Positions 169 through 15,762 of a stretch of 48,558 bases of DNA are shown here, one piece after another. Made by a program: the position numbers and the translations under genes. The notes under the pieces are model-generated. The model was not told the origin of the DNA. It saw only the letters and a list, made by a program, of their open reading frames with translations, and did not search any database. Numbering within the stretch: the stretch's first letter is position 1; every line of letters begins with the position of its first letter. This DNA is from Gammaproteobacteria bacterium. Its GTDB lineage: Bacteria > Pseudomonadota > Gammaproteobacteria > Arenicellales > Poriferihabitantaceae. The stretch is from NCBI GenBank assembly GCA_028817405.1, contig JAPPPS010000151.1, positions 1 through 48,558 of the forward strand. The letters are read 5' to 3'.

Positions 169-1041
169 TTATATGTTTTTGAACCAGTTGTCATCGATGG
201 TAACGCGCTCGACCATTTTGGTTGTGACGCCGAGTTCTAACTCTTTCAATTTGTCCATCAGCATTTCGCCGTCCATCAAATCAATCGGAACCGCGCCGCT
301 ACGCACCGCTTCAGTACGCGCGGTTTTGGTGAAACGTGAAGTGGTGACGAACAAACCGCGGTCGGCGCGCGTCATGAGCGAACCGCGAAACGCTTGAATC
401 TCTTTGTTGCCGACCGAGTTGCCCGGCCTGTAGCGTTTGCACTGAAACACTACCGAAAAACCGAGTAGGTCGTTGATTTTTGCGGTGGCTGTGCCGTCGA
501 TGCCATCATCGGCGCCCCTGCCTGTGACCTCCACATCGGTGAAGTTGCAGGCAAGCAACAACCGCTTGGTCAACCGCTCGAAAGCGTCAGACTTCAAATC
601 TGTTAACACGCCCAGAAGGTCGGTTTTCCACCCATCTTCCGCGTAGTTCTCCGGTTCCGCATCGTTTTCTCCCGGTTTCACCTCATCGCTGGATGACGCT
701 TTGCCTTTCCGCCACTTTGTGTAGACGTCGTTAACAATCTCATCAGCATCTATCTGGTCGATTTTTCCGGGAACAATCGCCCATGAACCGCGGGCAATAT
801 TTTCCAATATGCCGTACTCCTTAAGATAGGAACGTGCCCAGGCAATACGATATTCCAGTTCACCCTGCCCATTGGGCCGCGGCCGGTCAATAGTCTTGTT
901 AGGATGCGCATCCTGACATAACGAGATGACATTTTCATTGATTTGCTGATTCGACCCGGAACCGCCGAGCGCAACCAGCACATCAAATGTGGCCTTAACT
1001 ACGTCTGAGAAAGGAATTCTAATATAGCCGCTGTCGCTCAT
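169..1041 (-). CDS. mrr: Mrr-family restriction endonuclease
   Basis: A 290-residue type IV-like restriction enzyme; Mrr-family proteins cleave modified or foreign DNA. Residues 1-110 resemble the N-terminal winged-helix (Mrr_N) domain. A linker rich in charged residues follows, and residues 145-270 form the Mrr catalytic PD-(D/E)XK domain. The key residues are visible as DDGIDG (D182) and QCK (Q200-K202), the typical Q-x-K variant. The start MSDSGYIRIP is chosen because a GGAGG Shine-Dalgarno precedes it; the frame stays open further upstream, but that part lies inside the preceding gene. It overlaps the end of the HicB-fusion gene by 23 bases, so the two are probably co-translated. It sits immediately downstream of the ATP synthase operon on the same strand. 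Confidence 0.85.
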   Translation of the reverse strand: MSDSGYIRIPFSDVVKATFDVLVALGGSGSNQQINENVISLCQDAHPNKTIDRPRPNGQGELEYRIAWARSYLKEYGILENIARGSWAIVPGKIDQIDADEIVNDVYTKWRKGKASSSDEVKPGENDAEPENYAEDGWKTDLLGVLTDLKSDAFERLTKRLLLACNFTDVEVTGRGADDGIDGTATAKINDLLGFSVVFQCKRYRPGNSVGNKEIQAFRGSLMTRADRGLFVTTSRFTKTARTEAVRSGAVPIDLMDGEMLMDKLKELELGVTTKMVERVTIDDNWFKNI

Positions 1042-1471
1042 CACTCCCAACCTCCGATAACTTATTAGTCGTCCGCATCGATGTCGACGGAGAACGAACC
1101 TTGAATGTAAACAGCGCATTAGCGCCCTGATGCGGACCCGTTTTGAAAACCAAATCCACATTGAAAAACTCGCGGAACAACTTGGTGTCCAGCGCATTAC
1201 AAACCGCGCGCACCGGGCTTTCCAGTTTCATGTCACGGTGAACATCGCCGGCGCGGATTTGCACCGTGCCGCCGCCGTTTTTTCGCAAGGGTTCAATGTA
1301 TTTGTCCCCGGCGAATTGGCGGATTTCCTCGGCCAGATGAAATCGAATCGCGCTCTTGAGATTGCGCGCCACTTCGGCCCGGGTTTTGCCGGTGGCGACG
1401 CAGCCCGGCACTTCAGGCGAGTAGGCCGAGTAGTTGTTCGGGCCTTTTTCGACGCGGATGGTGTATGTCAT
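1019..1471 (-). CDS. HicB-domain protein with an extra C-terminal domain
   Basis: 150 residues. Residues 1-50 (MTYTIRVEKG, YSAYSPEVPGCVATGKT, AIRFHLAEE) are a recognisable HicB antitoxin fold. A second block, roughly residues 65-128 (IRAGDVHRDM, VRAVCNALDT, GPHQGAN, FTFKV), is not part of HicB; from memory it resembles short stand-alone uncharacterised proteins, but that is unverified. The last 20 residues overlap the start of mrr in another frame and may be non-essential. No HicA toxin is adjacent, so a simple HicAB pair is not supported. Linkage and overlap with mrr suggest a regulatory or specificity role for the nuclease, which is inference. It starts 16 bases after the atpC stop. Confidence 0.7.
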   Translation of the reverse strand: MTYTIRVEKGPNNYSAYSPEVPGCVATGKTRAEVARNLKSAIRFHLAEEIRQFAGDKYIEPLRKNGGGTVQIRAGDVHRDMKLESPVRAVCNALDTKLFREFFNVDLVFKTGPHQGANALFTFKVRSPSTSMRTTNKLSEVGSDERQRLY

Positions 1472-1487
1472 TTCAACCGCGCGCCGG

Positions 1488-1907
1488 TTACCGTTTGATT
1501 TCCCGCAGTTTTTCTATTGCGCGCAACTGGGCGACGGCGTTGGCGAGTTCGGCTTTGGCTTGGGCGTATTCCATGGCCGAGGTTTGGTCGCGAATCGCTT
1601 CCTCGGCTCGTTTTTGCGCGGCTTCGGCGGCCGCTTGGTCGAGGTCGTCGGCGCGGATGGCGGTGTCGGACAGCACCGTCACCAAGTGCGGCTGCACTTC
1701 CAGCAGGCCGCCGGAGATGAAGAAGAATTGCTCGCCGCCGTCTTCCTGCTGCACGCGCACATCGCCGGGTTTCAGGCGGGTGACCAGCGGCGTGTGCTTC
1801 GGCGCGATGCCGAGTTCGCCGAGTTCGCCGGGGGCGAACACCATGCTGCCTTCGCCGGACCAGATTTCCTCTTCGGCGCTGACGATTTCGACGCGGATGG
1901 TGGACAT
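1488..1907 (-). CDS. atpC: ATP synthase F1 subunit epsilon
   Basis: 139 residues, the usual length for the epsilon subunit, which links the c-ring rotor to gamma and inhibits ATP hydrolysis through its C-terminal helices. The N-terminal beta-sandwich motifs are present ([41 protein letters not shown]), followed by the two-helix domain (residues about 88-139, Ala/Glu/Arg-rich). It is the last gene of the canonical atp order, 45 bases after atpD, with no cargo between them. Confidence 0.97.
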
Positions 1908-1952
1908 GACGGACGCCCGGTCAGTTGCTCGGTGACTTGGTTGCTCGACCGC

Positions 1953-3338
<1,386 letters not shown>

Positions 3339-3368
3339 TTACCGAAGGGATAAAAGTTGGTTCACGGT

Positions 3369-3767
3369 TCACTGCTCATCGGCGGCCTGATAAATCATAA
3401 TCAGGTTGCCGCAGGTGTCGTCAAGCACGGCGGTCATTGTGCCGTTGCATAACGCGGGCTCGGCGCGAAACGAGACGCCTTGCGCCTTCAACCGCGCGTA
3501 TTCGGACTCGACATTATCCACCAAAAACGCGGTCAGCGGAATACCCTCATCGTAAAGCGCCCGTTTGTATGTCCGGGTCGCCGGGTGTTCGCCGTTGGGC
3601 TCCAGCAGCAACTCGGCGCCGTCCGGCTCATCGGCCGAGACCAAGGTCACCAGCCGCGCATCGCCGAGCGGCATGTCGCGCTTCTTGACAAAGCCCAGCA
3701 CCTCCACATAAAACGCCAGCGCTTTGTCCACATCGGAAATGGAGACGCTTTCGAGTTTGATTTTCAT
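3369..3767 (-). CDS. VOC (glyoxalase/bleomycin-resistance) superfamily protein
   Basis: About 132 residues with the beta-alpha-beta-beta-beta layout of VOC proteins: LESVSISDVDKALAFYVEVLGF, then DARLVTLVSADEPDGAELLLEP, LTAFLVDNVESEYARLKAQGVSF and a C-terminal DDTCGNLIMIYQ that carries the usual metal-ligand region. The substrate cannot be inferred. I place the start at MKIKLESVS, where VOC proteins normally begin; the frame is open to 3812, and the longer version would overlap the methyltransferase end. No strong Shine-Dalgarno decides it. It is the last of five cargo genes between atpG and atpD, 36 bases before atpD. Confidence 0.8.
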   Translation of the reverse strand: MKIKLESVSISDVDKALAFYVEVLGFVKKRDMPLGDARLVTLVSADEPDGAELLLEPNGEHPATRTYKRALYDEGIPLTAFLVDNVESEYARLKAQGVSFRAEPALCNGTMTAVLDDTCGNLIMIYQAADEQ

Positions 3768-3786
3768 CGGTGTTGATGTCTTGCTT

Positions 3787-4746
3787 TCAGCGGACGGCGT
3801 GGCGGTCATCATGATGCCGAGCGCCGGGCAACTGGCGTTTGAATTTCACGGCGGACGGGGCGGCGGGGGCGGCGCCCTGGTTGTCGCGCGCTTCCCCGAT
3901 TATATCCAATCTGGCGCGCATGACCCGCACTGCTTCCGGATTTTCGTCGATTAATATAAACCGTCGGCCGTGTTTCGCCGCCGCCTCGCCGGTGCTGCCG
4001 CTGCCGGCGAAGAAATCCAGCACGGTGTCGCCGGGGTTGGAATGGACGCGCACAATGCGCTCCAAAATCGCCAGCGGTTTCTGCGTTGGGTAGCCGGTTT
4101 TTTCCCGGCCGTTGGTCGGCACGATGGTCTGCCACCAGGTGTCGGTCGGGGTTTTGCCGCGCGCGGCCTTCTCGGCGCCAGCCAAGCCCGGCGCCATGTA
4201 CGGAATGCGGTCGATGGCGTCGTAGTTGAAGATATAGTCGTCGGGGTTTTTGGCGAACCAATAGATGTTGTCGTGCTTGGCTGACCATCGACTCTTCGAG
4301 CGCGCGCCGAAGTCGTAGGCCCAGATAATTTCGTTGATGCAGTGGCGCGCGCCGCCGAAAATTTCCTCCAGCAGCAACCGGCAACGCGCCGACTCGCGCC
4401 AGTCGATGTGGAAAAACAAACTGCCGTTGGCGGTTAAGATTCGATGCGCCTCGACCAGTCGCGGGCGCAGAAAGCCGGGATAGTCGGCGAATGAGTCGGC
4501 ATAACCGGAATCGCCGGCGCCGCTGACCACTTTGGTTTTATACCGCCGCCCGCTGAAACCGATGCGGTCGCCATGGTCCGCCGGCGCCGCATCCGCCACT
4601 GCCGTGACCCGGATGCGTTTGCGCGCCTGCGTTCTGCCGGTGTTGAACGGCGGGTCGATGTAAATTAACGCCGCCGACTCATCCGGCATTCGCCTCAAAT
4701 GCGGCAGGTTGTCGCCAAGGAGAATTTGGCTGGCGTTTTGCTGCAT
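3787..4746 (-). CDS. Site-specific DNA methyltransferase (N6-adenine/N4-cytosine, beta-type order)
   Basis: 319 residues. Motif IV DPPFNTG (D31-P-P-F34) comes before motif I DFFAGSGSTGEAA (F246-G250), the order of beta-class amino-methyltransferases (N6_N4_Mtase family). GYPTQKPLAILERIV is also typical of this family. The protein should transfer a methyl group from SAM to adenine or N4-cytosine; the recognition sequence cannot be predicted. It starts 2 bases after the stop of the small membrane/coiled-coil gene, so the two are probably co-translated. No dedicated restriction endonuclease is adjacent, so it may be an orphan methyltransferase or part of a nearby defence cassette. Confidence 0.92.
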   Translation of the reverse strand: MQQNASQILLGDNLPHLRRMPDESAALIYIDPPFNTGRTQARKRIRVTAVADAAPADHGDRIGFSGRRYKTKVVSGAGDSGYADSFADYPGFLRPRLVEAHRILTANGSLFFHIDWRESARCRLLLEEIFGGARHCINEIIWAYDFGARSKSRWSAKHDNIYWFAKNPDDYIFNYDAIDRIPYMAPGLAGAEKAARGKTPTDTWWQTIVPTNGREKTGYPTQKPLAILERIVRVHSNPGDTVLDFFAGSGSTGEAAAKHGRRFILIDENPEAVRVMRARLDIIGEARDNQGAAPAAPSAVKFKRQLPGARHHDDRHAVR

Positions 4747-4748
4747 CG

Positions 4749-4970
4749 CTATTTTGCGCGCCGTTTGCTTTCGAGTCGATTCAGGCGGTTGTCGAGCATT
4801 TGGAAAAACAGCCTTTTATAGTGCTGGTTTTCCTTGACCAAACGCTCGGTCTGTTGGCGGAAATATGTCAGTTCGTCTCGCTGCATTTTCATCCGATGGA
4901 CAAATTGCATGACGATGGCGACAAGCAACAGCACCGAGAATGAACTCAATACGACGGTCATTTCATTCAT
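4749..4970 (-). CDS. Small membrane-anchored coiled-coil protein
   Basis: 73 residues. An N-terminal hydrophobic helix (about residues 5-25, VVLSSFSVLLLVAIVMQFV) is followed by a basic, heptad-like amphipathic region (residues 28-70, rich in R, Q, E, L), as in a single-pass membrane protein with a cytoplasmic coiled coil. A GGAG Shine-Dalgarno 7 bases upstream supports the start. It ends 2 bases before the methyltransferase start and follows the proline-rich microprotein by 72 bases. I do not recognise a family. Confidence 0.65.
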   Translation of the reverse strand: MNEMTVVLSSFSVLLLVAIVMQFVHRMKMQRDELTYFRQQTERLVKENQHYKRLFFQMLDNRLNRLESKRRAK

Positions 4971-5042
4971 GGTTTCTCTCCGGCCGTTGACGAACCGTCG
5001 CCACCGCCGATGGTGGCGACGGCGGATTCAAGTTTGTGCCAA

Positions 5043-5183
5043 TCAGTCTTTCGACCTTGACGGCGGCGGAGGCGGCGCCGGTGGCGGTGGCGGACGCTTG
5101 ACGCCTGCAGGGCGCGGGTTGTAGTTCCGCCGGATTTTCCCGAGGAAATCCCTCGACGGCTTAGGGTTGGGCGTGCTGGTCAT
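5043..5183 (-). CDS. Proline-rich 46-residue microprotein
   Basis: A short reading frame read directly from the sequence: it starts MTSTPNPKPSRDFLGKIRR, continues to a VKR followed by PPPPPAPPPPP, and ends SRSKD. Three things support it: a GGAG Shine-Dalgarno 9 bases upstream, an ATGA overlap with the stop of the DUF6338-like gene (5183-5180), and clean termination. The polyproline run would adopt a PPII helix and could bind a partner protein. Polyproline also stalls ribosomes, so EF-P dependence is expected. Function is unknown; the overlap points to a partner role with the upstream membrane protein. Confidence 0.65.
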   Translation of the reverse strand: MTSTPNPKPSRDFLGKIRRNYNPRPAGVKRPPPPPAPPPPPSRSKD

Positions 5184-5770
5184 GACGATTTCTCCGGATA
5201 GCGAGATATGAATTCAACCATGTGTACGCGGCTTGCGTCAACAAGGATTCCGCGCACATTCTCCAATTCAACGACTTTTGCATCAGAATCATCTTCGCCC
5301 TGCACCCATGCGGCATTTTCAAGCAGGATGTGGCCTTTGTCAGGATTCGCGGGCCATATTTCTGGCCAGCCAATCAAACGCCTGCCGTCTTTCAGGTGTA
5401 ACACAATGTAACCGACTCTGTAACCTTCAAAAGATTGCAGCCATTCCGACTGGTATGATGTTCGCGTGGTGAAGCGCGCTCTTCTGAGCAGTTTGTGCAG
5501 CCAATCATTGTTTACAAAAATCGTAAAAACAATTCCCAGCAGAACCGCAGCCCCAAACGGCAGAATATTTTCCACCCATCCTTGCTGTGGAAAACACAAG
5601 CGAAAAGGAAAAACCAACCCTTGGATAAACAGCGTAAATATCAGCGCTTGTATCACACGCTCAAATTGCGAGGGCTTGGTATAGGATGCCAGTCCGTAAA
5701 AAATCCACGCCGCAAGAAACCCCGGCAGGAGGTATTGCAGCAGGGAAATGACTTGCTGGCTAACCGGCAT
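5180..5770 (-). CDS. DUF6338-like membrane protein
   Basis: 196 residues. Hydrophobic segments lie at about residues 8-27 (LLQYLLPGFLAAWIFYGLAS), 40-57 (VIQALIFTLFIQGLVFPF) and 70-88 (LPFGAAVLLGIVFTIFVN). A soluble C-terminal domain of about 95 residues follows, with GYIVLHLKDGRRLIGWPEIWPANPDKGHILLENAAW, an RNA-chaperone/Sm-like or barrel-like beta pattern. The LLPGFLAAWIFYGL start with the KPSQFERVIQALIFT stretch recalls the uncharacterised DUF6338 family; this is from memory. The gene begins 2 bases after the atpG stop and overlaps the proline-rich microprotein by 4 bases. Confidence 0.7.
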   Translation of the reverse strand: MPVSQQVISLLQYLLPGFLAAWIFYGLASYTKPSQFERVIQALIFTLFIQGLVFPFRLCFPQQGWVENILPFGAAVLLGIVFTIFVNNDWLHKLLRRARFTTRTSYQSEWLQSFEGYRVGYIVLHLKDGRRLIGWPEIWPANPDKGHILLENAAWVQGEDDSDAKVVELENVRGILVDASRVHMVEFISRYPEKSS

Positions 5771-5772
5771 TG

Positions 5773-6642
5773 CTAAACCGCCGCCGCCCCGCCCACTATC
5801 TCGGACAGTTCCTGCGTAATCGCGGCTTGCCGGGCTTTGTTGTAGACCAGTTGCAACTCGTCGATGAGTTTGCCGGCGTTGTCGGTGGCGGATTTCATCG
5901 CCACCATGCGCGCGGCTTGTTCGCAGGCGGCGTTCTCCGCGACTTCCTGATAAATCAGCGACTCGATGTACCGCGACATCAAGGTGTCGATAACCTCTTT
6001 CGCGTCCGGCTCGTAGATGTAATCCCAGTGGTGCGACATGTCCTTGTCCTCATCCTCGGCGTTGGGCGTGATGGGAATCAACTGCTCGATGAGCGGCCGC
6101 TGCGTCATGGTGTTGACGAACTCGTTGCTGGCCACGAACAGCCGGTCGATGCGCCCCTCCATATAGTCGTCCATCATCACCTTGACCGCGCCGACCAACT
6201 CATGCAGTTGCGGCGCGTCGCCCAAGTTGACCGCTTCCGAGACGATGTTGGCTTTGAAACGGTTAAAGAACGCGCCGGCCTTTTTGCCGATGACCGACAC
6301 CCGCACATCGGCGCCTTTGTCGTGCCATTCCGACATCGCGGCCACGGCTTGGCGAAACAAATTAACATTCAGCCCGCCGCACAACCCGCGGTCCGATGAC
6401 ACGACCACAAAACCGACCGCCTTGACTTCGCGCTCGACCGTATACGGATGCTGGTATTCCGAATGCGCGCGCGCCAGGTGCGCGACCACGCCGCGCATTT
6501 TGTTCGCGTACGGCTGCGCCGCGCGCATGCGTTCCTGCGCCCGCCGCATCTTGCTGGCGGCGACCATCTCCATCGCTTTGGTGATTTTCCGCGTGCTGCC
6601 GATGGAGTTGATTTGCGTGCGGATTTCTTTGGCGCCGGGCAT
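5773..6642 (-). CDS. atpG: ATP synthase F1 subunit gamma
   Basis: 289 residues, full length. Gamma is the central rotor shaft that turns inside the alpha3beta3 ring. The N-terminal coiled-coil helix ([36 protein letters not shown]) and the C-terminal helix ([38 protein letters not shown]) are both intact, as is the [10 protein letters not shown] motif. It starts 2 bases after the stop of the YajG-like lipoprotein gene with no strong Shine-Dalgarno of its own, so translation is probably coupled to that cargo gene. Ten accessory genes separate it from atpA. Confidence 0.98.
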
Positions 6643-6644
6643 GG

Positions 6645-7232
6645 TTAATTGGTACCGGTGAGAAACTGTTCCAGTTCGGCGTCGGCGGCGATGCGCGCGA
6701 GGATGTCGCTCAGCACATCGCTCGGCGTGGCGCCGGGCTTCGGCCGGTTCAATTCGAGAACCGCCTGGCGCTCGCCGACCGAGCGGTAGGTGCTGGTGCG
6801 GCGACTCGCGCCGCGCACCGCCTCGGCGACAAACACCGCCGCCGCTTCCTCGTCCGACGACCAGCGCTTGGTGGCGACCGCGTAATCGAAGACCCGCACC
6901 GCGACCGACAGCCGCGCGTCATGCGGCGCGCCGGCCGCGACCAAGCGGTAGCCCTTGCGCGCAAACAACTCGCGCACCGCCGCCTCAACCGCCTCGATGA
7001 CTTCACCGTCGCCGCCGTCGCCGCGCGCATCGCTGACCGACAACGCCAGCGCGGTGTCCCGCTCAATCGCCGCCAACTCGGCCGGCAACACCGGCGCAAT
7101 CGCCACCGGCGGCGGGGTGTAGGCGCAGCCGGCGAGCAGGGCGGCGGCCAAAGCGGCCGGGGCCGCGGACTGAATCAACTTCGACAACGCGCAATTGCGT
7201 GCGCGCGGATTGTGGCTTGGGAATGATTTCAT
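6645..7232 (-). CDS. YajG-like lipoprotein
   Basis: 195 residues from the ATG at 7232, which has a strong GGGAGG Shine-Dalgarno 8 bases away. A lipoprotein signal is clear: a basic N-terminus, a hydrophobic stretch and the lipobox LAGC with Cys36. The mature part has the pattern of YajG-family outer-membrane lipoproteins ([55 protein letters not shown]); this assignment is from memory and moderate. It has its own extended -10 promoter at 7262-7270 and ends 2 bases before atpG, so it likely feeds transcription and translation into atpG. Confidence 0.65.
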
Positions 7233-7261
7233 GACGCTGCCTCCCGGCGAATGGAGCGCGG

Positions 7262-7270
7262 ATTGTAGCA
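7262..7270 (-). promoter_or_regulatory. Extended -10 promoter for the YajG-like gene and atpG
   Basis: On the minus strand this reads TGCTACAAT, a TGN-extended -10 hexamer (TACAAT), about 30 bases before the ATG at 7232. The bases after it (GCGCTCCATTCGCC) closely match those after the two other -10 elements at 8594-8602 and 10638-10646, suggesting a shared promoter module. It would give atpG, atpD and atpC an internal promoter. Confidence 0.5.
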
Positions 7271-7355
7271 TGGGTGGGGCGGGTGGAATTTGGGCGGATT
7301 CATCGCTTCATCACGCCCGCCGGCGACGGGTGTTTCCACCGCTGGGCGCGTGGCG

Positions 7356-8603: not shown

Positions 8604-9215
8604 TTAATGTGAACGCGGTTCGGCTATCTCAATCCACTCCGCGCCGTAGAAAACGATTGTGGGAATGCGAACCTCAACATCCCCTTTGAGAGATTTAACC
8701 GTAAAATCGAAATCTTGCATGTCTCCTTCATAACCCTCAAAACGGAACCATTGACCAAATATATGGCTTGCTTTTTCCGCCTGAGAGATTTGTTTTTGTG
8801 GTTGTACACGCCATTCGTCAGATTCATTAGATTCATCAGAAAACGAATATGTCGCTTCGTGCAAAAAGAATACAGCCCAGTTTTGGACATCATGAATAGC
8901 GATTGGTTTCAACGTTGCCATAGCCTTTTCATCGGGCAGCAAAAACCTCAGAAAAATTCCGGGTTTGATAACCTGTCGAACTGAAACTTTTGGAACTCTC
9001 GACTCCATTGTGAAAGATCCCAAAACTCGGCCCAACACTCTCCTCACAAAAGAGCGTTTTGGTTCCCAAAATTTCCCCATGGGTTGCCCACGATGCATAT
9101 TCAATTTTGCCATGCCGCCCACAAAGTTGGCATCGGTCCAGCCGTAATCCTCTCTCAAAATTGTGTTGAGAGTTCGTGAACATGTATCGGCTACTTCTGA
9201 ATTAAATGTACTCAT
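8604..9215 (-). CDS. Uncharacterised protein, second gene of a two-gene cassette
   Basis: 203 residues from MSTFNSEVADTC, supported by GGAGG 6 bases upstream. No signal peptide or membrane segment is visible and I recognise no domain. The composition is soluble and mixed, with an aromatic-rich C-terminal half (HIFGQWFRFEGYEGDM, VFYGAEWIEIAE). The coding region is clearly less GC-rich than the atp genes around it, which points to horizontal acquisition. It overlaps the 77-residue gene upstream by 14 bases, so the two form a coupled unit. Confidence 0.65.
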   Translation of the reverse strand: MSTFNSEVADTCSRTLNTILREDYGWTDANFVGGMAKLNMHRGQPMGKFWEPKRSFVRRVLGRVLGSFTMESRVPKVSVRQVIKPGIFLRFLLPDEKAMATLKPIAIHDVQNWAVFFLHEATYSFSDESNESDEWRVQPQKQISQAEKASHIFGQWFRFEGYEGDMQDFDFTVKSLKGDVEVRIPTIVFYGAEWIEIAEPRSH

Positions 9216-9435
9216 TTTTAACCTCCACATATTTTGCCAGTTTCATCCCAGCGCGAATGTACGGTCCTTTTCTGCCGGTTGCTCGTTCAGCCAGATTATC
9301 GATTGAAACTCCACAATCTTGTATTTCTTTGGAGTACATAACCCCAAACAAAACAAGCATGGCGTTCTTTTCTCCGGACAGTGCACCACTTTTGTGCATG
9401 CGACTTAACTCGGAGATTAATTTTTCAGGCGACAT
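9202..9435 (-). CDS. Small possible HTH protein, first gene of the cassette
   Basis: 77 residues from MSPEKLISELSRMHKSG. The middle and end (VSIDNLAERATGRKGPYIRAGMKLAKYV) look like a helix-turn-helix or winged-helix segment, but no family is recognised. The start is fixed by a GGGAG Shine-Dalgarno 8 bases upstream that is itself part of a duplicated copy of the atpA 3' end (9427-9454). It overlaps the 203-residue gene downstream by 14 bases, an arrangement common in toxin-antitoxin and regulator-effector pairs. Confidence 0.6.
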   Translation of the reverse strand: MSPEKLISELSRMHKSGALSGEKNAMLVLFGVMYSKEIQDCGVSIDNLAERATGRKGPYIRAGMKLAKYVEVKNEYI

Positions 9436-9454
9436 ATCACCAACTCCCATTCGC
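9427..9454 (-). repeat. Duplicated copy of the atpA 3' end (junction repeat, distal)
   Basis: The plus strand carries ATCACCAACTCCCATTCGC (9436-9454), identical over 19 bases to 11171-11189, which encodes the last residues of AtpA (ANGSW-stop). Extending to 28 bases, only three positions differ. Both copies have the same orientation and bound a 1.7-kb segment holding HicB, the zeta-like gene, copy B and the 124-residue gene. In minus-strand terms this copy follows the HicB stop and supplies the ribosome-binding site for the 77-residue gene. Confidence 0.75.
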
Positions 9455-9455
9455 A

Positions 9456-9668
9456 TCACGCATACATCAACCGCTCGCCCTTGGGCTGCGGTACGGGGTC
9501 GCCGAATTCTTCGGCAGTGGCAATCCACAGTTCAATCGCTTGCGTCACATTCGCGAGCGCGTCTGCAGGCGAATCGCCGTGCGCGATGCACCCGGGCAGT
9601 TCCGGGACTTCGGCGAGAAACGCCTGGTCGGCATCGCTCCAGTAAATGATGGTTTCGTATTTATGCAT
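9456..9668 (-). CDS. hicB: HicB-family antitoxin, solitary
   Basis: 70 residues: MHKYETIIYWSDADQAFLAEVPELPGCIAHGDSPADALANV and AIELWIATA are the partial RNase H-like HicB fold. A full HicB often has a C-terminal DNA-binding domain; this one is the short form. In hicAB systems HicB neutralises the HicA mRNA interferase, but no HicA-like frame lies next to it. It follows the zeta-like gene by 32 bases and is the last gene before the duplicated atpA end. Confidence 0.8.
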   Translation of the reverse strand: MHKYETIIYWSDADQAFLAEVPELPGCIAHGDSPADALANVTQAIELWIATAEEFGDPVPQPKGERLMYA

Positions 9669-9700
9669 TGCACTATTCCGACGGTTGATATTTTACCAAA

Positions 9701-10411
9701 TCAGCCGCCAATCAGCGCCAGAATCTCTTCCGCATTATAGCGCTCAGGGATGTGGTCATCGACCCGCTGGATGCTTTTATGGTGGGAGCGGTTGCCCGTG
9801 TTGTCGATGTTTTTGATAATCAGCGACAGCGTGATTTTGTCGCCAAATTCCGCCTTCATTTTGTTGACGACAGCGTAAGATGCGCAAAACTTCTGCGCGA
9901 AATTATCCGCAAAAATTCGCCGCCCCTCGACCTCCTCGCGGCGTTGCACAAAATCCCAGGCGATTTGCGGTGACTGGTAGATGAACATAACAAACACTTC
10001 CCGCCCGCGTTTCAGCGAGCGCTCGATATTCTGGCGCGCAACACCCTCATTGGCGAATGTACCGTCCAGCAAAAAACTGACTTGCTTTTTTAGAGCGAGG
10101 TTGTGAATCTCGTGCACCAACCGGGTCGCGGCTTTTTGGAACAGATGAGAATTCGCGCCATCGTAGCCGCACACGGTGAAGCAAACGCGCAACTCATCGG
10201 CGTCGATTCGCGCGACATTGCCGGCGCCCTGTACAAACCTTTTGGAAAATTCGGTCTTGCCCGCGCCCGGTGAGCCGGCCATGAAAGCGGATACCGGATT
10301 TTCTGCGGAATTGAAATCCGCCAAAAAATCCGCGGCGATTTGTTTGGCGTTTGCCCGGGCAAAATCATCCGCGCGCTGGCGCAGCGCCGATTCGTCGTCA
10401 GCAGCGCTCAC
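9701..10411 (-). CDS. Zeta-toxin-like P-loop kinase
   Basis: 236 residues with a Walker A motif AGSPGAGKTE (residues 45-54), followed by ARIDADELR at the position where zeta toxins carry the catalytic Asp, and HEIHNLALKKQVSFLLDGTFAN. Zeta toxins phosphorylate UDP-N-acetylglucosamine and block cell-wall synthesis; the substrate here is not demonstrable. The start is GTG at 10411, 6 bases after the stop of antitoxin-like copy B, suggesting coupled translation. It could instead be another zeta-fold nucleotide or nucleic-acid kinase. Confidence 0.8.
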   Translation of the reverse strand: MSAADDESALRQRADDFARANAKQIAADFLADFNSAENPVSAFMAGSPGAGKTEFSKRFVQGAGNVARIDADELRVCFTVCGYDGANSHLFQKAATRLVHEIHNLALKKQVSFLLDGTFANEGVARQNIERSLKRGREVFVMFIYQSPQIAWDFVQRREEVEGRRIFADNFAQKFCASYAVVNKMKAEFGDKITLSLIIKNIDNTGNRSHHKSIQRVDDHIPERYNAEEILALIGG

Positions 10412-10417
10412 GCCGAA

Positions 10418-10609
10418 TCAACACCCATTCGCCGCGGCGCGCTGCCGGCGCAGTTGCTCCGAGCGCTCGATGATTTTGCGCTGGTCGGCGATGGATTCAT
10501 CGATGGCTTTCATAATCACACGCTCTCGTTCACTGTCGGATGCATTGCGCATGAATTCCGAGAAATCACCGTTTTTCGCGGTTGCTTTGGGGTTTGAGGA
10601 TGGTTTCAT
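10418..10609 (-). CDS. Antitoxin-like small protein, copy B
   Basis: 63 residues starting MKPSSNPKATAKN, with the same helical core as copy A (FSEFMRNA ... ERERVIMKAIDESIADQRKI). GGAG lies 8 bases upstream of the chosen ATG. It directly precedes the zeta-like kinase, so it is the likely antitoxin of that unit. It is not like the classic epsilon or PezA antitoxins. DNA similarity to copy A spans about 10434-10647 versus 8393-8605, in the same orientation. Confidence 0.7.
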   Translation of the reverse strand: MKPSSNPKATAKNGDFSEFMRNASDSERERVIMKAIDESIADQRKIIERSEQLRRQRAAANGC

Positions 10610-10637
10610 GGGTCTGTCTCCAGTGGTCGATGGGCGC

Positions 10638-10646
10638 ATTGTAGCA
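10638..10646 (-). promoter_or_regulatory. Extended -10 promoter of the copy B/zeta unit
   Basis: The minus strand reads TGCTACAAT, preceded by TA, about 28 bases before the ATG of copy B. This is a good TGN-extended -10. The leader GCGCCCAT matches the copy A promoter region. Confidence 0.5.
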
Positions 10647-10695
10647 TAAATGACGGATCAGATGGTGGCGGAATCGTTTTGGTGTCGGGCATGAT

Positions 10696-11070
10696 TCATG
10701 CCCAAGGCTTTGGCGGGTATTTGCCGTCCCATGTATAGAGATTTTCGTTCAATTCTCCCTTTGTGCAGGCAAACCCGCGGATTTTATCTTCCATGATGAC
10801 TTTTTTGAGCAGTCGACCGACTTCCTGTGCGGCGACTTTATACGCAGTTTTACCGTCTGTTGTTTGCTTATCATACACGCATTGCAACGGCGTGCCTTCC
10901 CAATTCCAGTTCACGCCCCCCACTAAATTGTGGGCGGCGAACGGCTGTGTACCTCTGCTCTCGCACCACCCATAAACCATCCCGTGCAGATAGTTATGGA
11001 TGTCCCTCCGCTGCTCTTTCGTCAACCCGCTCACCTCTCTTGGCGGCTGGTTGTTTTCACCGATAATCAT
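10696..11070 (-). CDS. Uncharacterised 124-residue protein downstream of atpA
   Basis: The start MIIGENNQPPREVSGLTKEQ has AAGG 8 bases upstream; a longer frame runs into a palindromic repeat and atpA and is rejected. Features seen: LHGMVYGWCESRGTQPFAAHNLVGGVNWNWEGTPL, then LLKKVIMEDK. It appears soluble, with many Trp. The NW-x-GTPLQ-x-YD pattern recalls small hypothetical proteins often met in integron cassettes or accessory islands (from memory, unverified). It is the first cargo gene after atpA, separated from it by about 100 bases. Confidence 0.65.
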   Translation of the reverse strand: MIIGENNQPPREVSGLTKEQRRDIHNYLHGMVYGWCESRGTQPFAAHNLVGGVNWNWEGTPLQCVYDKQTTDGKTAYKVAAQEVGRLLKKVIMEDKIRGFACTKGELNENLYTWDGKYPPKPWA

Positions 11071-11097
11071 GTCTGTTACCTTGCGATTAAGAGTTAA

Positions 11098-11124
11098 CTG
11101 GATTCCCGCTTTCGCGGGAATGAC
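11098..11124. repeat. REP-like palindrome after atpA
   Basis: CTGGATTCCCGC (11098-11109), a short loop and GCGGGAATGAC (11114-11124) form a perfect stem in the atpA-cargo gap. The same GGATTCCCGC/GCGGGAATGAC arms recur at 22327-22358, so it belongs to a dispersed palindrome family. On the minus strand the hairpin could protect or partially terminate the atpA message. Confidence 0.7.
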
Positions 11125-11161
11125 GGCGGGGCGGTATGGTAGCAAAAAGCGAGTTATAAAA

Positions 11162-11189
11162 AGGCGGGTTATCACCAACTCCCATTCGC
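11162..11189 (-). repeat. Original copy of the atpA 3' end (junction repeat, proximal)
   Basis: This segment contains the last codons and stop of atpA. It is the partner of 9427-9454 (19 identical bases, 25 of 28 overall). The pair bounds the inserted 1.7-kb segment. Confidence 0.75.
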
Positions 11190-12719
11190 CTTAAAATCTT
11201 CCACCACCGCCTTTAACTTCGCCGCGATTTCGTCGTTGTATTCCGGGTTGCCGTTAATCTCCTCCAGCAACGCCGCGTGCGATGACTTCGCATGCGCTTG
11301 CAGCGCCGCTTCGAAGTCGACGGATTTGCCGACTTCCACTTCGTCCAAGTAACCTTCGTTCACCGCGAACAGCGACAGCGCCATCTCAGCCACCGACATC
11401 GGTTGGTATTGCGGTTGTTTCATCATTTCCATTACGCGTTCGCCGCGTTCCAGTTGTTTGCGCGTGGCTTCGTCCAAGTCGCTGGCGAACTGCGAGAACG
11501 CCGCCAACTCGCGGTATTGCGCCAGCGCCAGGCGGATGCCGCCGCCGAGTTTTTTGATGATGGGGGTTTGCGCCGCGCCGCCGACCCGCGACACCGACAA
11601 GCCGGCGTTGATGGCCGGGCGGATGCCGGCGTTGAACAGACCGGTCTCCAAGAAAATCTGGCCGTCGGTGATGGAAATCACATTGGTCGGCACGAACGCC
11701 GACACATCGCCGGCCTGCGTCTCGATAATCGGCAGCGCGGTCAGCGAGCCGGTGCGGCCGGTGACCTTGCCGTCGGTGAGTTTGCTCACCGCATCTTCGT
11801 TGATGCGCGCGGCGCGTTCCAGCAGGCGCGAGTGCAAGTAGAACACATCGCCGGGATAGGCCTCGCGGCCCGGCGGCCGGCGCAGCAGCAGCGAGATTTG
11901 CCGGTAGGCCCACGCCTGCTTGGTCAAGTCGTCGTAGATGATGAGCGCGTCCTCGCCTTTGTCGCGGAAGTATTCGCCCATGGTGCAGCCGGAATACGGC
12001 GCGATGAACTGCTCGGCGGCGGAACTGGAGGCCGCGGCCGCGACCACGATGGTGTGTTCCATCGCGCCGTGCTCCTCCAACTTGCGCACCACCGCGGCGA
12101 TGCTCGACGCCTTCTGGCCGACCGCGACATAGATGCATTTAATGCCGGTACCCTTTTGGTTGATGATGGCGTCCACCGCCACCGCGGTTTTGCCGGTTTG
12201 GCGGTCGCCGATGATGAGTTCGCGCTGGCCGCGGCCGATGGGCACCATCGCGTCGATGGACTTCAAGCCGATTTGCACCGGCTGGTCGACCGACTTGCGC
12301 GCGATGACGCCGGGCGCGACCTTTTCAATCGGCGACACCCCCGCGGCCTCAATCGCGCCCTTGCCGTCCACCGCTTGGCCGAGCGAATCGACCACGCGGC
12401 CGAGCAACGCCTCGCCGACCGGCACTTCGAGAATGCGCCCGGTGCATTTAACCGTGTCGCCTTCCGACAGGTGTTTGTATTCGCCGAGCACCACCGCGCC
12501 GACCGAATCCTGCTCGAGGTTGAGCGCCAGGCCGAAGGTGTTGCCGGGGAATTCCAGCATCTCGCCCTGCATGGCTTCGGACAGACCGTGGATGCGCGCG
12601 ATGCCGTCGGTCAGCATCACGATGCTGCCCTCGGTGCGCGCCTCGGCGTGCGCTTCGAAGTTTTCGATGCGCGCCTTGATGAGTTCGCTGATTTCGGACG
12701 GGTTAAGAGTGGTAGACAT
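11172..12719 (-). CDS. atpA: ATP synthase F1 subunit alpha
   Basis: 515 residues, full length. It is the non-catalytic nucleotide-binding subunit of F1. The Walker A motif is GDRQTGKT, and the conserved [45 protein letters not shown] stretch and the arginine-finger region [12 protein letters not shown] are present. GAGGAG lies close upstream of the ATG. Two nuclease-like cargo genes precede it and ten cargo genes follow. Its 3' end is duplicated at 9427-9454. Confidence 0.99.
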
Positions 12720-12775
12720 GTGTTCTCCTCAAGTTTTGAGGCCGGGTTGCGTGGGTGAATATTCAACGACAACCG

Positions 12776-13438
12776 TCAGCGGTCGCCGTTTTCGGATGTG
12801 GTCGACTTATTCTCGAAGTGTTCAAGATAAGTGATTGCGTTGCGGAGGCCAAACTCGCCGTTTTGGAAACTGGCAAGGCTTGTGTGGCAATTATCGCAGA
12901 GGAAACGGCGGAACCGGCCGTTTGAACGCTGGTGGTCCAGCACCACTTTCATGGTGACATCAACGATGCCGCGCTTTTCGCAGATTGGGCATTTCCACAG
13001 CGTACCTTTTTTCGGCCCGAGTTTTCTCGCTTTCCGTTGCATCGCTTGATGCATGGTTTTTCGGGCAAGGGCGCGACGGCAGAGTTCGCAACTGGAGCGG
13101 GATGAATTTAGTCCGTTAGTGTCGGTCGGGTTCTCTGCAAACTTTGAGTGCGATTTAAGCACGTAGCAAGTGTTGCATATCTTTTTGGCGAACCCGTTGC
13201 CGGTTTGCAACGGATCGATGCGTGACAGTTTTTTGGTGGGAACCATGTATTCCTCACCGTCGCCAATGACGTAAACACGCGCCATGTCGCCGTCCACCTC
13301 GCGCACTTCAGCGACTGATTTGCGCGTAAAGTGCGAAACCAATTCGTAAGCCGTGAAGCTGAGCAACACCCCCTTGCCGGTTTTGCACACCACAATGTCA
13401 TGCAGTGCAATCGTTTCGTTCATGTCAGTTGCCAGCAT
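12776..13438 (-). CDS. Zinc-binding HNH protein, endonuclease VII-like
   Basis: About 220 residues. The N-terminal third is beta-rich (VVCKTGKGVLLSFTAYELV, ARVYVIGDGEEYMVPTKKL). Then come two cysteine clusters: C88-x2-C91 with C117-x2-C120, and C150-x2-C153 with C181-x2-C184. The second encloses VLDHQRSNGRFRRFLCDNC, the signature layout of phage recombination endonuclease VII and HNH nucleases (D168-H169). A nuclease acting on phage or branched DNA is likely. The start may instead be the ATG at 13423; neither has a strong Shine-Dalgarno. It pairs with the GIY-YIG gene 16 bases upstream, between atpH and atpA. Confidence 0.75.
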   Translation of the reverse strand: MLATDMNETIALHDIVVCKTGKGVLLSFTAYELVSHFTRKSVAEVREVDGDMARVYVIGDGEEYMVPTKKLSRIDPLQTGNGFAKKICNTCYVLKSHSKFAENPTDTNGLNSSRSSCELCRRALARKTMHQAMQRKARKLGPKKGTLWKCPICEKRGIVDVTMKVVLDHQRSNGRFRRFLCDNCHTSLASFQNGEFGLRNAITYLEHFENKSTTSENGDR

Positions 13439-13454
13439 TTGTGTATGTGGCGTG

Positions 13455-14147
13455 TTACCGCGCCGTTCGCAACTGCTGTTGCAGTTGGTGCAGCGTGGTG
13501 CCTTGATATTTCCACCGTGTGCTGCCGGTGATTCGATGGGTGTCGCCGGTCGTTTGGCGTTGCACCAGTCGGGCGCCGGCGTGGACGGACATTACCTTGC
13601 CATCATACTCAACTTTTCCGCCAGCGACCACCTTTGCGATTTTAGACGAGTCATATGTGGAAATCAACTCCGCGCCGACCGCGATTCCCAGCGGCTCAAA
13701 AGCGAAACCGGCGCGCGAGGCGACCGCCTCCTCAGCGTTGCGCGCGTCAACATCCGCTTGCGTGATGTTTGGCGACAACTCATCACCGTCAATCGTGATT
13801 TCTTTGCCGGGGTATAAGTCTAAAACTTCAACGACCGATTCCGCGTCGATGCGAAAAAATTCGCGGTTCGGGTTGATGCGGGTGTGCGCGAAAATTTTGT
13901 GCAGTTTGGACTCCGCCGCTTGGCAGTTTTCAACCGCCTTGGCGTATTCCAAATCAAACGGCAGCGCCATGCTGGTGGTGAACAACTGCCCCATGCGCTT
14001 TTTCAGTGCGCCGGGGCTGGGCGGCGAAGTGCGCCCGATTTTCAGAATCGGCAACAACACTTCATCGTCTTCGCGCTCCGGCAACCACAAACTTCGGTTG
14101 CTGACCGCGTAAACGATGCCGTCCGGTTTCGCGTCCACCACCGTCAC
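13455..14147 (-). CDS. GIY-YIG (T5orf172-type) protein with RAMA-like C-terminus
   Basis: 230 residues. The N-terminal domain reads IVYAVSN (VYA 12-14), LKIGRT (KIG 36-38), LKKRMGQLFTTSMALPF (R51), CQAAESKLHKIF (E79) and INPNREFF: the T5orf172/MUG113 branch of GIY-YIG nucleases. The C-terminal 90 residues (LGIAVGAELIS, GGKVEYDGKVMSVHAGARLVQ, GSTRWKYQG) resemble the RAMA/DUF2924-type domain linked to restriction and modified-DNA recognition. It has a GTG start that overlaps the atpH stop (GTGA), so it is translationally coupled to atpH. A defence nuclease that senses modified DNA is a fair inference. Confidence 0.78.
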   Translation of the reverse strand: MTVVDAKPDGIVYAVSNRSLWLPEREDDEVLLPILKIGRTSPPSPGALKKRMGQLFTTSMALPFDLEYAKAVENCQAAESKLHKIFAHTRINPNREFFRIDAESVVEVLDLYPGKEITIDGDELSPNITQADVDARNAEEAVASRAGFAFEPLGIAVGAELISTYDSSKIAKVVAGGKVEYDGKVMSVHAGARLVQRQTTGDTHRITGSTRWKYQGTTLHQLQQQLRTAR

Positions 14148-14701
14148 CCCACGCTCAACGCGCTTTGCAGTTGCGCGAGTTGCCCGCGCGCTGATGCGTC
14201 CAGCACCCAGTCGCCGGCACGGACCACGATGCCGCCGATGAGCGATTCGTCCACGACCGTTCGCGCCGTCACCTTGCGCCCGAGTTTTTTCGCAAGCGCA
14301 TCGGTTATCGCATCGCGCTGGGCATCCGACACTTCAAATGCGGCGGTGATGACCGCCTGCACGGTGCCTTCGGCCTCGGCGCGCAGTTGCTCGAAACGCG
14401 AGGCGATGGCTGGCAACGCGGTGAGGCGGCCGTTGGCGGCGAGGAGTTTCAGTAGATTGCGTTGCTGGGCATCGTCGGCTGCGGCATCAGCACCGGCGAG
14501 CGCGATTTCCGCGACCAATTCCAGTAGACGTGTTTTGTCGGCGCGCGGATTCAGCAACAGTTGCGCGACCCGCTCATCGCGTACCACCACCGCGGCGCGC
14601 GCAAGGAACGTTGACCAGGCACCGATGCGCCCGGCATCGCCGGCCGCAACAGCGAACACCGCATCGGCGTACGGGCGGGCGATGGCGGAGAGGGAAGTCA
14701 T
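14144..14701 (-). CDS. atpH: ATP synthase F1 subunit delta
   Basis: 185 residues, usual length. Delta is the stator cap joining the b subunits to F1. Conserved features are IARPYADAVFAVA at the N-terminus, LLAANGRL mid-protein, and LIGGIVVRAGDWVLDASARGQLAQLQSAL at the C-terminus. The start ATG overlaps the stop of the 75-residue cargo gene (ATGA) and the stop overlaps the next cargo gene (GTGA), so atpH is embedded between two foreign genes by 4-base overlaps. Confidence 0.97.
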   Translation of the reverse strand: MTSLSAIARPYADAVFAVAAGDAGRIGAWSTFLARAAVVVRDERVAQLLLNPRADKTRLLELVAEIALAGADAAADDAQQRNLLKLLAANGRLTALPAIASRFEQLRAEAEGTVQAVITAAFEVSDAQRDAITDALAKKLGRKVTARTVVDESLIGGIVVRAGDWVLDASARGQLAQLQSALSVG

Positions 14702-14925
14702 GGACGGTTACCTACTATTGGAAAACACCGGCAGATGCGGACATCTTTGCCTGTTTTCCTTGCGGCTTTTAGTGCGGCCTGCGTTGTGGAAAGCGGGCCG
14801 CACCAACTCTCTTCCCACCTTTTCCTGTCGCGACCGTACACCGTTTTGGCTGTTCGGTAGTGACGACAGTTACCGTCATGGACGCCAACGCGCCAAGATT
14901 TTCTAATGTAAATCCAATAAGCCAT
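14698..14925 (-). CDS. Uncharacterised 75-residue protein coupled to atpH
   Basis: Features seen: a Trp/Arg-rich N-terminus (MAYWIYIRKSWRVGVHDGNC), a CRHYRTAKTVYG stretch and CGPLSTTQAALKAARKTGKDVRICRCF. Four cysteines and many basic residues are present; C20, C42, C65 and C67 could bind metal. No family is recognised. It begins 2 bases after the preceding 120-residue gene and its stop overlaps the atpH start (ATGA), so AtpH translation likely depends on ribosomes finishing this frame. Confidence 0.6.
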   Translation of the reverse strand: MAYWIYIRKSWRVGVHDGNCRHYRTAKTVYGRDRKRWEESWCGPLSTTQAALKAARKTGKDVRICRCFPIVGNRP

Positions 14926-14927
14926 GG

Positions 14928-15290
14928 TTAGTTCCCCTTTTTACAGTAAACGCCCCGGCTTTCGTATTCGGCTTTGTCGAACAATACGAATACACCGCCG
15001 AGAGTGGTGAAGTTGCAGTCGCCATCGTTATCCGATTTCGGGTATTCGCGCGAAAATTCCGTGTGGAGCAATTTTCCTGTGCAAGCCAATTGCTCTTCAG
15101 CCCATATAAAGGCTGAAAAAGGAACGCGCTTTGTTGAACCGGATGTTCCTGGGATGCGATAAACCAGCGCATCCTCACCACGAGAACGCCCAACACCCTT
15201 CACGGTGTAGATTTCTTCCGATTCGGGTTTTGGTATCGGTTCCCCATCGGGGATTTTTTTAATTTGGTCGATGATATTCACGACTGCCAC
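14928..15290 (-). CDS. Uncharacterised 120-residue protein between atpF and atpH
   Basis: GTG start one base after the atpF stop. Features: IIDQIKKIPDGEPIPKP, GRSRGEDALVYRIPGTSG, KRVPFSAFIWAEEQLACTGKLLHTEF and DGDCNFTTLGGVFVLFDKAEY. The last block resembles a domain I recall from small hypothetical proteins of accessory islands (C-N-F-T-T-x-G-G-x-F), which is unverified. It is soluble with no signal. Together with the 75-residue gene it forms a two-gene insert between atpF and atpH. Confidence 0.65.
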   Translation of the reverse strand: MAVVNIIDQIKKIPDGEPIPKPESEEIYTVKGVGRSRGEDALVYRIPGTSGSTKRVPFSAFIWAEEQLACTGKLLHTEFSREYPKSDNDGDCNFTTLGGVFVLFDKAEYESRGVYCKKGN

Positions 15291-15291
15291 C

Positions 15292-15762
15292 TCACAACTT
15301 CCCGGCCAGGTCTTTCAGCATGCTGTCGTGCGCGTCGGCGTCGATTTCCCGGCCTAAGATTTGCCGCGCGCCGGCCACGGCCAATTCCCCGACTTTGCCG
15401 CGCAGGGATTCTTTGGCGCGGTTGAGTTCGGTGTCGACCTCGGCGCGCGCGGCGGTGACGATGCGCTGGCCCTCGGCGCGCGCCGATTCTTTGGCCTCGT
15501 CGACCAACTCGGCGCCGCGCTTCTCGGCGCGGGCGATGATTTCCTTCGCCTGCGCTTTGGCCTCGGCGACCGTCTCATCGGCGCGCTGTTTGCCCTGCGA
15601 CTCGGCGGCGCGGCCCTTCTCGGCCGCGGCCAGGCCGTCGGCGATGGTGGTCTTGCGCTGGTTCAACGCGCCGATGAGCGGCGTCCACACGAAGCGCTTG
15701 CTGAACCACACGAACACGATGAAGAACAGCACCTGAAACAGCAGCGTGAGATTGATGTTCAT
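15292..15762 (-). CDS. atpF: ATP synthase F0 subunit b
   Basis: 156 residues from MNINLTLLFQVLFF, with GAGG 7 bases upstream; a longer frame to 15825 is rejected because it runs into atpE. One membrane helix (about residues 5-25) is followed by the long charged helix of the peripheral stalk (Ala/Glu/Lys/Arg-rich, residues 35-150). Length and layout match the E. coli b subunit. Confidence 0.97.
   Translation of the reverse strand: MNINLTLLFQVLFFIVFVWFSKRFVWTPLIGALNQRKTTIADGLAAAEKGRAAESQGKQRADETVAEAKAQAKEIIARAEKRGAELVDEAKESARAEGQRIVTAARAEVDTELNRAKESLRGKVGELAVAGARQILGREIDADAHDSMLKDLAGKL

Follow-up and report, generated by a model that had tools for sequence, protein, structure and literature searches.

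Restriction-modification and toxin-antitoxin genes among same-strand cargo in the ATP synthase operon of a gammaproteobacterium, and their possible acquisition by recombination in respiratory genes

The ATP synthase (atp) operon of the gammaproteobacterium analyzed here is interrupted by 20 additional genes, referred to below as cargo, among which genes of restriction-modification (RM) and toxin-antitoxin (TA) systems are frequent. The window, that is, the whole stretch of 48,558 nucleotides, is an entire contig (G000:C105, 48.6 kb) of a draft genome (G000; 2.86 Mb, 160 contigs, 93% complete). The genes atpB, atpE, atpF, atpH, atpA, atpG, atpD, and atpC are all open reading frames and follow each other in the canonical order on the minus strand, with gaps of 590 bp between atpF and atpH, 1424 bp between atpH and atpA, 4529 bp between atpA and atpG, and 2440 bp between atpG and atpD (Table 1). 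These four junctions hold 2, 2, 10, and 4 cargo genes, 18 in all, and two more follow atpC. The original prediction, made from the sequence alone, had described intact atp genes in canonical order with multi-gene, same-strand cargo at exactly these places; its count of 19 is corrected to 20, all of which lie on the operon strand. The G+C content of the cargo (mean 0.54) is lower than that of the atp genes without atpI (0.635; Mann-Whitney p = 6e-4), and neighboring genes are spaced by -14 to 123 bp, except for one spacing of 209 bp and one overlap of 62 bp between the last two genes, for which the starts were chosen. We consider it reasonably likely that RM- and TA-rich cargo was gained by recombination anchored in conserved respiratory genes and was then read with the operon.

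The location had been predicted to be unusual, and this is what the comparisons indicated. Of 590 stretches matching atpG, the best 80, all named loci, served as the background sample, in which the atpF-atpH, atpH-atpA, atpA-atpG, and atpG-atpD junctions were measurable in 71, 72, 80, and 80 loci and had median distances of 13, 6, 44, and 53 bp, respectively. Distances above 200 bp at these four junctions were found in only two of these best 80 of 590, L080 (1301 bp in atpA-atpG) and L082 (331 bp in atpG-atpD). The former is a Candidatus Albibeggiatoa metagenome-assembled genome, which also has 446 bp in atpD-atpC. Within the family of the window genome, the operon was tight in 15 of the 17 genomes with most of it on a contig (G002, with only an atpB piece, and G003, with no atp match, were uninformative); a short family contig (L024) was tight for atpA-atpG-atpD, and two genomes at the order level were tight as well. 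The exceptions were G001, a congener of the window genome, and G004, from the sister genus; G000 to G004 make up two genera of the same family. In G001, the gaps are 1952 bp in atpA-atpG and 958 bp in atpG-atpD, and the cargo, assigned partly by eye, consists of an outer-membrane-like protein, a small gene with a zeta toxin, a small membrane protein, and a protein without a family; two of these proteins had no Pfam match. In G004, the corresponding gaps are 292 and 612 bp, and they hold, again partly by eye, a relative of the HTH_73 protein and two small proteins without a family.

Evidence for exchange came from a second family, f6, whose only two genomes in the comparison set, G028 and G038, both carry atp cargo. 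Protein identities to the window are 81% for PDC-S57 and 77% for DUF6338 in G028, and 81% for the methyltransferase and 89% for the VOC protein in G038; for comparison, AtpA, AtpD, AtpC, and AtpG of G028 are 82%, 84%, 74%, and 69% identical to those of the window, and AtpF and AtpB 56-64%. The DUF6338 gene directly follows atpG in both the window and G028, and the PDC-S57 gene of G028 lies upstream of SPFH-NfeD-atpA, on a contig that ends there and leaves atpH outside it. The methyltransferase-VOC pair precedes atpD in the window but lies in atpA-atpG of G038, where the VOC gene is followed by 117 bp of the 5' end of atpD and then by the native atpA tail. This atpD piece is 87% like atpD of the window, 81% like that of G001, and only 72% like that of G028, a member of its own family. 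In addition, atpA of G038 is 93-100% like that of G028 up to about nucleotide 1440-1470, after which the likeness falls to 76% and 49% in stretches that are 64% and 67% like the window. Behind atpF, G028 has a gene for a 474-aa protein, a 5' piece of atpH, a 3' tail of atpF (56 bp, 79%), csrA, and atpH, in this order, and G038 has remnants of cargo 1, 2, and 3 (the first two by eye). The csrA domain of G028 begins an open frame that runs into atpH, with Pfam matches to CsrA and OSCP (L190 6757-7632).

G038 has the block of presumed antitoxin, zeta, and hicB as well (86% over 1217 bp), next to an apaH-like gene; there the block carries the 3' end of cargo 5 together with an end resembling the atpA tail, as would be expected if it came out of an atp operon. 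The zeta toxin of the window is 85% identical to that of G038 and 69-70% identical to that of its congener G001 at the same junction. Similarly, AtpH of the window is 53% like that of G038 and 44% like that of G001, and in the AtpH tree the window groups with G038 (support 97/95), while 16 family members group without the window (100/96). When seven of the 20 cargo proteins (cargo 1, 3, 4, 7, 10, 12, and 15) were used to query 109 genomes of the order, 12 genomes including G000 had matches at 1e-10, mostly distant, and matches of at least 69% outside G000 were found only in G001, G028, and G038. The atp fragments beside the cargo indicate that atp flanks travelled along with it.

From these arrangements, we infer a route in which the atp and nuo operons of the lineage would act as docking sites for short, same-strand cargo rich in RM and TA genes. 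Donor DNA in which cargo is bordered by a conserved gene from an atp or nuo operon would enter the cell; one end would cross over close to the 3' end of the homologous gene in the recipient, inside that gene, and the other would be joined with little or no homology, leaving beside the cargo the tail of the upstream gene and the head of the next donor gene. Later full homologous exchange would spread established arrangements, would sometimes replace a subunit gene such as atpH, and would wipe out the traces of the first event. Cargo might then be retained because cells do not easily lose RM and TA genes and because a deletion touching an essential gene would be costly. The original prediction had likewise supposed that the location would keep the genes constantly expressed and penalize their loss by polar deletion. 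A one-sided homologous crossover with an illegitimate joint is proposed because a gene with a changed end, cargo, a donor head, and a recipient tail are its expected residue. This architecture is seen at two f6 junctions and, in less complete form, at one junction of the window. A crossover on one side inside a conserved gene was indicated in atpA of G038 (one case, about 50 bp), and a non-homologous joint with a recipient remnant in G038 (atpD piece and atpA tail) and in G028 (atpH piece and atpF tail). In the window, 20 bp of the 3' end of atpA are repeated exactly behind hicB, whereas a shared stretch of even 12 nucleotides arose in only 21 of 2000 shuffles. The remnant scan flagged this junction and atpF-atpH of G028, and it missed atpA-atpG of G038, which was found by reading. 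Repeats of the upstream tail did not exceed shuffles at 17 of the 19 scanned junctions, the exceptions being the window (20 bp, exact) and G028 (56 bp, 79%). The head of atpD found in atpG-atpD of G028 (15.5 vs a shuffle maximum of 11.5) lies inside a cyclase gene and was taken as chance. Downstream of atpA lies a palindrome like a repetitive extragenic palindrome (REP), of which the window has a single occurrence when up to three mismatches are allowed; a wider pattern found no other independent site among 209 loci, and a near copy was then found in G038. No integrase or transposase was seen among the Pfam matches of 19 of the 20 cargo proteins; no search for attC sites was made. Matches to PDC-S57 in plasmids (3 records) and phages (3) and to zeta in plasmids (8) were all below 45% identity, so that these searches revealed no transfer vehicle.

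With respect to its content, the cargo had been described as defence genes, and it is better called defence-rich, because ten of the 20 genes have neither a firm nor a weak match to RM, defence, or TA families. Six matches are firm: PDC-S57, the Hpy99I-type endonuclease, zeta, HicB, the type II DNA methyltransferase, and the Mrr-type type IV enzyme. Four are weak, namely the two copies of the presumed antitoxin, cargo 12 (GIY-YIG-like by eye), and the HicB-like N-terminus of cargo 19. The remaining ten comprise a lipoprotein, the VOC, DUF6338, and HTH_73 proteins, membrane proteins, and proteins without a family. Nevertheless, PDC-S57, REase_II, MTase_II, and mREase_IV lie within 14 kb, as found with the 10 of 20 proteins that were scanned with PADLOC. 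The ratios of nonsynonymous to synonymous divergence (dN/dS) were 0.13 for S57, 0.17 for zeta and VOC, 0.20 for the methyltransferase, and 0.21 for DUF6338, and therefore these five proteins are under constraint. The Hpy99I-type gene (PDB 3fc3, 4e-36) differs from a complete type II RM system in that no cognate methyltransferase adjoins it, its neighbors in the window being PDC-S57 and atpA; a methyltransferase does adjoin its relative in nuoI-nuoJ of G004. The presumed antitoxin occurs in two copies with different partners, zeta and the GIY-YIG-like protein; the copy beside zeta had no Pfam match and a single PADLOC match (0.008, type I specificity subunit). A plasmid with a zeta relative gave no help for the antitoxin assignment, as the gene annotated upstream encodes a DUF3596 protein of 389 aa and the downstream side holds a short piece of an integrase. 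In G001, a relative (43%) of the Mrr-type enzyme is encoded behind atpC and a gene resembling htpX. Single-sequence folding gave poor models for cargo 10 and 12 (mean predicted local distance difference test scores of 34.9 and 44.3), which were set aside.

The cargo is probably transcribed together with the operon, because intergenic terminator-like sites on the operon strand are absent and most neighbors are close to each other. This was concluded from a consensus scan of positions 1-17200 of the window on both strands, in which 33 terminator-like sites were found compared with 24.8 (standard deviation 5.3) in shuffles; all of those on the operon strand were located within genes.

The atp operon is not the only site with cargo, since nuo, sdh, and other loci of G000 also hold RM genes or inserts. 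The nuo, S10-spc, dcw, rpoBC, and sdh clusters were picked before any of them was inspected, and nusA-infB, lpx, trmD, his, and tol formed a second set. No insert was visible in the ribosomal, RNA polymerase, and division clusters of G000, and the second set was clean too. In contrast to these, sdhA-sdhB contains an EamA transporter gene, and the two nuo contigs terminate in methyltransferase genes, one behind nuoB and the other behind nuoI, placing cargo in nuoB-nuoC and nuoI-nuoJ. In total, cargo was present at 7 of 15 respiratory junctions (atp 4/8, nuo 2/5, sdh 1/2) vs 0 of 61 others (Fisher's exact test, p = 2.9e-6), where neighboring junctions are non-independent and both nuo cases are inferred from contig ends. 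The 61 empty junctions include gaps taken without gene-by-gene reading (ftsQ-murC, 901 bp; secY-rpsM, 352 bp; tufB-rplC, 409 bp; others of 250-271 bp), sdhC-sdhA (440 bp) was counted as respiratory and cargo-free from its gap alone, the 340 bp of rpsC-rplP reflect a longer rpsC, and truB to an lpxD-like match (1784 bp) was excluded as a non-operon junction.

In a nuo survey of 40 genomes, nuoI-nuoJ held methyltransferase-type genes in each of the five genomes from the two genera, completely in G002 and G004 and as judged from contig ends in G000, G001, and G003, whereas it was tight (at most about 110 bp) in all of the 28 other genomes in which nuoI and nuoJ share a contig; G008 had nuoI only, and six genomes had neither gene. 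The insert consists of an 83-aa gene, a methyltransferase, and a 222-aa protein without a Pfam match in G002, and of a methyltransferase and an Hpy99I-type enzyme in G004; a methyltransferase follows nuoI in G003 and precedes nuoJ in G001. In G000, at least three methyltransferase-type genes and one more gene precede nuoJ, and another methyltransferase start follows nuoI. The genes upstream of nuoJ are in tandem, two of them being near-identical at their starts (L200 8627-13402, G000:C66), which may account for the contig breaks. In G028, hisA-hisH contains a SocA/Panacea antitoxin gene with a 134-aa partner (L239 9499-10448, G028:C43).

Several observations weigh against acquisition by anchored recombination of defence-rich cargo followed by expression with the operon. 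Accepted atp remnants were found at only three of the 19 scanned junctions, so that most junctions are without traces. The likeness of the new atpA end of G038 to the window is a single case of about 50 bp and reaches only 67%, and monophyly of the family AtpH including the window was not rejected (approximately unbiased test, p = 0.0995). The comEC gene was too widespread to be informative, as it was found in 5 of 6 genomes but also in 10 of 14 controls. Synonymous divergence (dS) was saturated for cargo 1 and 16 and above 1.4 for the HTH_73, Mrr, and small genes; furthermore, dS is sensitive to G+C content, gives no dating of transfers, and makes G028 seem closer than G004. Half of the cargo in the window shows no recognizable link to defence, and the same holds for most of the genes inserted in the atp operons of G001 and G004. 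In the Hpy99I-type protein, the Asn of the CN motif, which we take to be catalytic, is replaced by His, and the enzyme may therefore be dead. Finally, internal promoters are possible, as the 12 promoter-like sites on both strands exceed the 6.5 (standard deviation 2.4) found in shuffles.

Among other explanations, neutral accretion is a possible one, although we would not expect it to be correct. It states that in drift-prone genomes flooded with RM and TA genes, same-strand inserts persist wherever they leave the operon unbroken, with no selection for atp or nuo as sites, and it is compatible with the recombination route. One methyltransferase query matched 54 pieces (matches being pieces, not genes) in G000 and 22, 13, 16, and 26 in G001 to G004, compared with 17, 12, and 29 in G010, G013, and G028 and with 0-5 in each of the remaining 16 of 24 genomes; the cargo is mixed and partly decayed, and passages of a study of sponge symbionts report enrichment in RM and TA genes (PMC5649159). 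Evidence against neutral accretion comes from the uneven spread over the junctions of G000, from the tight atp operons of the RM-rich G010 and G013, and from the low dN/dS of several cargo genes.

Self-insertion of RM and TA units is rather improbable. Here, operon genes would be frequent targets, and the atp flanks would be duplicated targets instead of homology arms. Passages of PMC3031569 describe RM systems as mobile units that insert with long, variable target duplications and occur in operons as well. The 20-bp repeat of the window and the atpF tail of G028 resemble such duplications, and the tandem methyltransferases in nuoI-nuoJ would fit. Moreover, of ten stretches sampled from G000, four had a methyltransferase with same-strand housekeeping neighbors that could be named by eye, namely prs and rplY on either side (L201), ilvC (L208), aspS (L207), and rpe (L203). 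However, self-insertion leaves unexplained the window-like atpD piece and the changed atpA 3' end in another family, the f6-like atpH in the window, and the inserts without RM or TA genes (SPFH-NfeD, lipoprotein). It is very improbable that the order had the cargo from its origin and that most of its lineages then lost it. DUF6338 behind atpG and PDC-S57 upstream of atpA do occupy matching positions in two families, but 15 family genomes are without atp cargo, which is thus not fixed over deep time. The few and mostly distant matches of the seven queries in the order also speak against ancestral cargo, as do the atpD piece of G038, which is window-like and not f6-like, and the zeta toxin of G038, which is nearer to the window than that of the congener is. 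An assembly or binning artefact is the least probable explanation, close to negligible: all genomes concerned are drafts, and in G000 the nuo contigs break off within or next to repeated methyltransferase genes, but the atp arrangement lies on a single contig, and misassembly is unlikely because G001, G004, G028, and G038 bear their own, partly different cargo, with identities of about 35-90% that are not those of copies. Neither of the two outcomes named as refuting the original prediction, deep fixation of the cargo and misassembly, was observed.

We found no description of RM or TA cargo within atp or nuo operons among the listed titles and abstract openings of open-licence papers. Defence islands and hotspots between core genes contain clustered RM, TA, and candidate defence genes at recurrent sites; in the present case, the sites are within essential operons, with 2-10 genes per junction on the same strand. 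The RM mobile units mentioned above are alike in that RM genes occur in operons and in that what may be short duplicated host sequence lies beside the insert (at two junctions here), and they differ, as far as the passages describe them, from the present case with its TA and unrelated cargo, its atp and nuo sites, and its donor atp fragments moved between families. Homology-facilitated illegitimate recombination has been proposed for immunity arrays of the type VI secretion system in Vibrio (PMC5361080). The passages describe one conserved anchor, a non-homologous far end, displaced 3' remnants, and arrays, which is similar to the arrangement reported here, except that the anchor here is a complete essential ATP synthase gene and the cargo is RM- and TA-rich. 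In sponge symbionts, similar gene classes occur in large numbers (PMC5649159, PMC6790972), and an amt gene is nested in a thaumarchaeal ATP synthase operon (PMC6790972); defence genes inside atp or nuo operons are not described in the passages concerned.

If recombination anchored in respiratory genes is the correct explanation, defence genes can dock even in operons of the highest conservation, defence functions have a route of movement that needs no mobile elements, and the otherwise puzzling mosaic make-up of essential subunit genes, atpH among them, is explained. The atp and nuo genes of such lineages would then be unsafe as phylogenetic markers. As the atp and nuo genes are conserved across families, cargo lodged between them would carry homology arms that fit most co-resident bacteria and could spread with no need for an integrase. 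It is a tentative suggestion, and one that may well be wrong, that essential respiratory operons constitute a shared, element-free platform for the exchange of defence genes, at the price of pieces of ATP synthase subunits being swapped between species.

Table 1. Features of the atp operon and its cargo in the window. The Pfam scan covered 19 of the 20 cargo proteins.
Feature	Position	Strand	Remarks
atpI region, approximate	17037-17500	-	by eye, inside 340-aa open reading frame 17037-18059
atpB	16068-16931	-	
atpE	15803-16033	-	
atpF	15292-15762	-	Pfam ATP-synt_B 2.4e-29
Cargo 1	14928-15281	-	no family named, 117-120 aa; distant relative (36% over 81 aa) after atpF in G028
Cargo 2	14698-14925	-	no family named, 75 aa; stop overlaps atpH start (ATGA)
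atpH	14144-14701	-	closest to AtpH of G038 (other family), not congener
Cargo 3	13455-14147	-	T5orf172 domain (Pfam); PADLOC PDC-S57 1.5e-45, candidate defence protein
Cargo 4	12776-13438	-	Hpy99I-type restriction endonuclease; PADLOC REase_II 1.4e-37; PDB 3fc3 4e-36
atpA	11172-12719	-	
atpA 3'-end 20-bp repeat, first copy	11170-11189	-	exact
REP-like palindrome	11093-11126	-	97% over 34 bp to copy beside zeta block in G038
Cargo 5	10696-11070	-	no family named, about 124 aa; 35 bp of 3' end (91%) also upstream of zeta block in G038
Cargo 6	10418-10609	-	small protein, presumed antitoxin of cargo 7 by position only
Cargo 7	9701-10411	-	zeta toxin family; Pfam 5.1e-31; 108.1 bits vs cut-off 22.3
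Cargo 8	9456-9668	-	HicB-like antitoxin; Pfam 1.9e-9, above cut-off
atpA 3'-end remnant, second copy	9435-9454	-	after hicB, directly before HTH_73 start
Cargo 9	9202-9435	-	HTH_73 protein, Pfam 2.7e-11; relative (42% over 77 aa) in atpA-atpG of G004
Cargo 10	8604-9215	-	203 aa; no family match (Pfam, PADLOC)
Cargo 11	8365-8565	-	second presumed antitoxin copy; 85% over 187 bp to cargo 6
Cargo 12	7860-8375	-	171 aa, GIY-YIG-like by eye only; no Pfam or PADLOC match
Cargo 13	7356-7766	-	membrane protein by eye, 136 aa; nothing above Pfam cut-off
Cargo 14	6645-7232	-	lipoprotein, Lipoprotein_16 7.8e-11
atpG	5773-6642	-	
Cargo 15	5180-5770	-	DUF6338 8.7e-13; 77% identical gene directly after atpG in G028
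Cargo 16	4749-4970	-	73 aa, membrane segment by eye; weak relative (35% over 57 aa) at same junction in G001
Cargo 17	3787-4746	-	N6/N4 DNA methyltransferase, type II; Pfam 3.1e-47; PADLOC 1.4e-121
Cargo 18	3369-3758	-	VOC/glyoxalase protein 6.6e-17; start codon provisional
atpD	1953-3332	-	
atpC	1488-1907	-	
Cargo 19	1019-1471	-	HicB-like N-terminus, below Pfam cut-off
Cargo 20	169-1080	-	Mrr-type type IV restriction enzyme; PADLOC mREase_IV 2.9e-25; start provisional

Pieces of IS1595-like transposases were seen by eye beside a methyltransferase gene (L206 8321-8725), beside the zeta block of G038 (L220, about 2200-2300), and, in the window, at 45883-46290 beside a CRISPR array. This array, of about 10 kb, follows genes resembling a Type I-C system, identified by eye as cas3, cas5, cas8c, cas7, cas4, cas1, and cas2 (27900-45900). 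Elsewhere in the window (22619-23483), two small genes resemble, by eye, precursors of natural products of the leader-peptide type.

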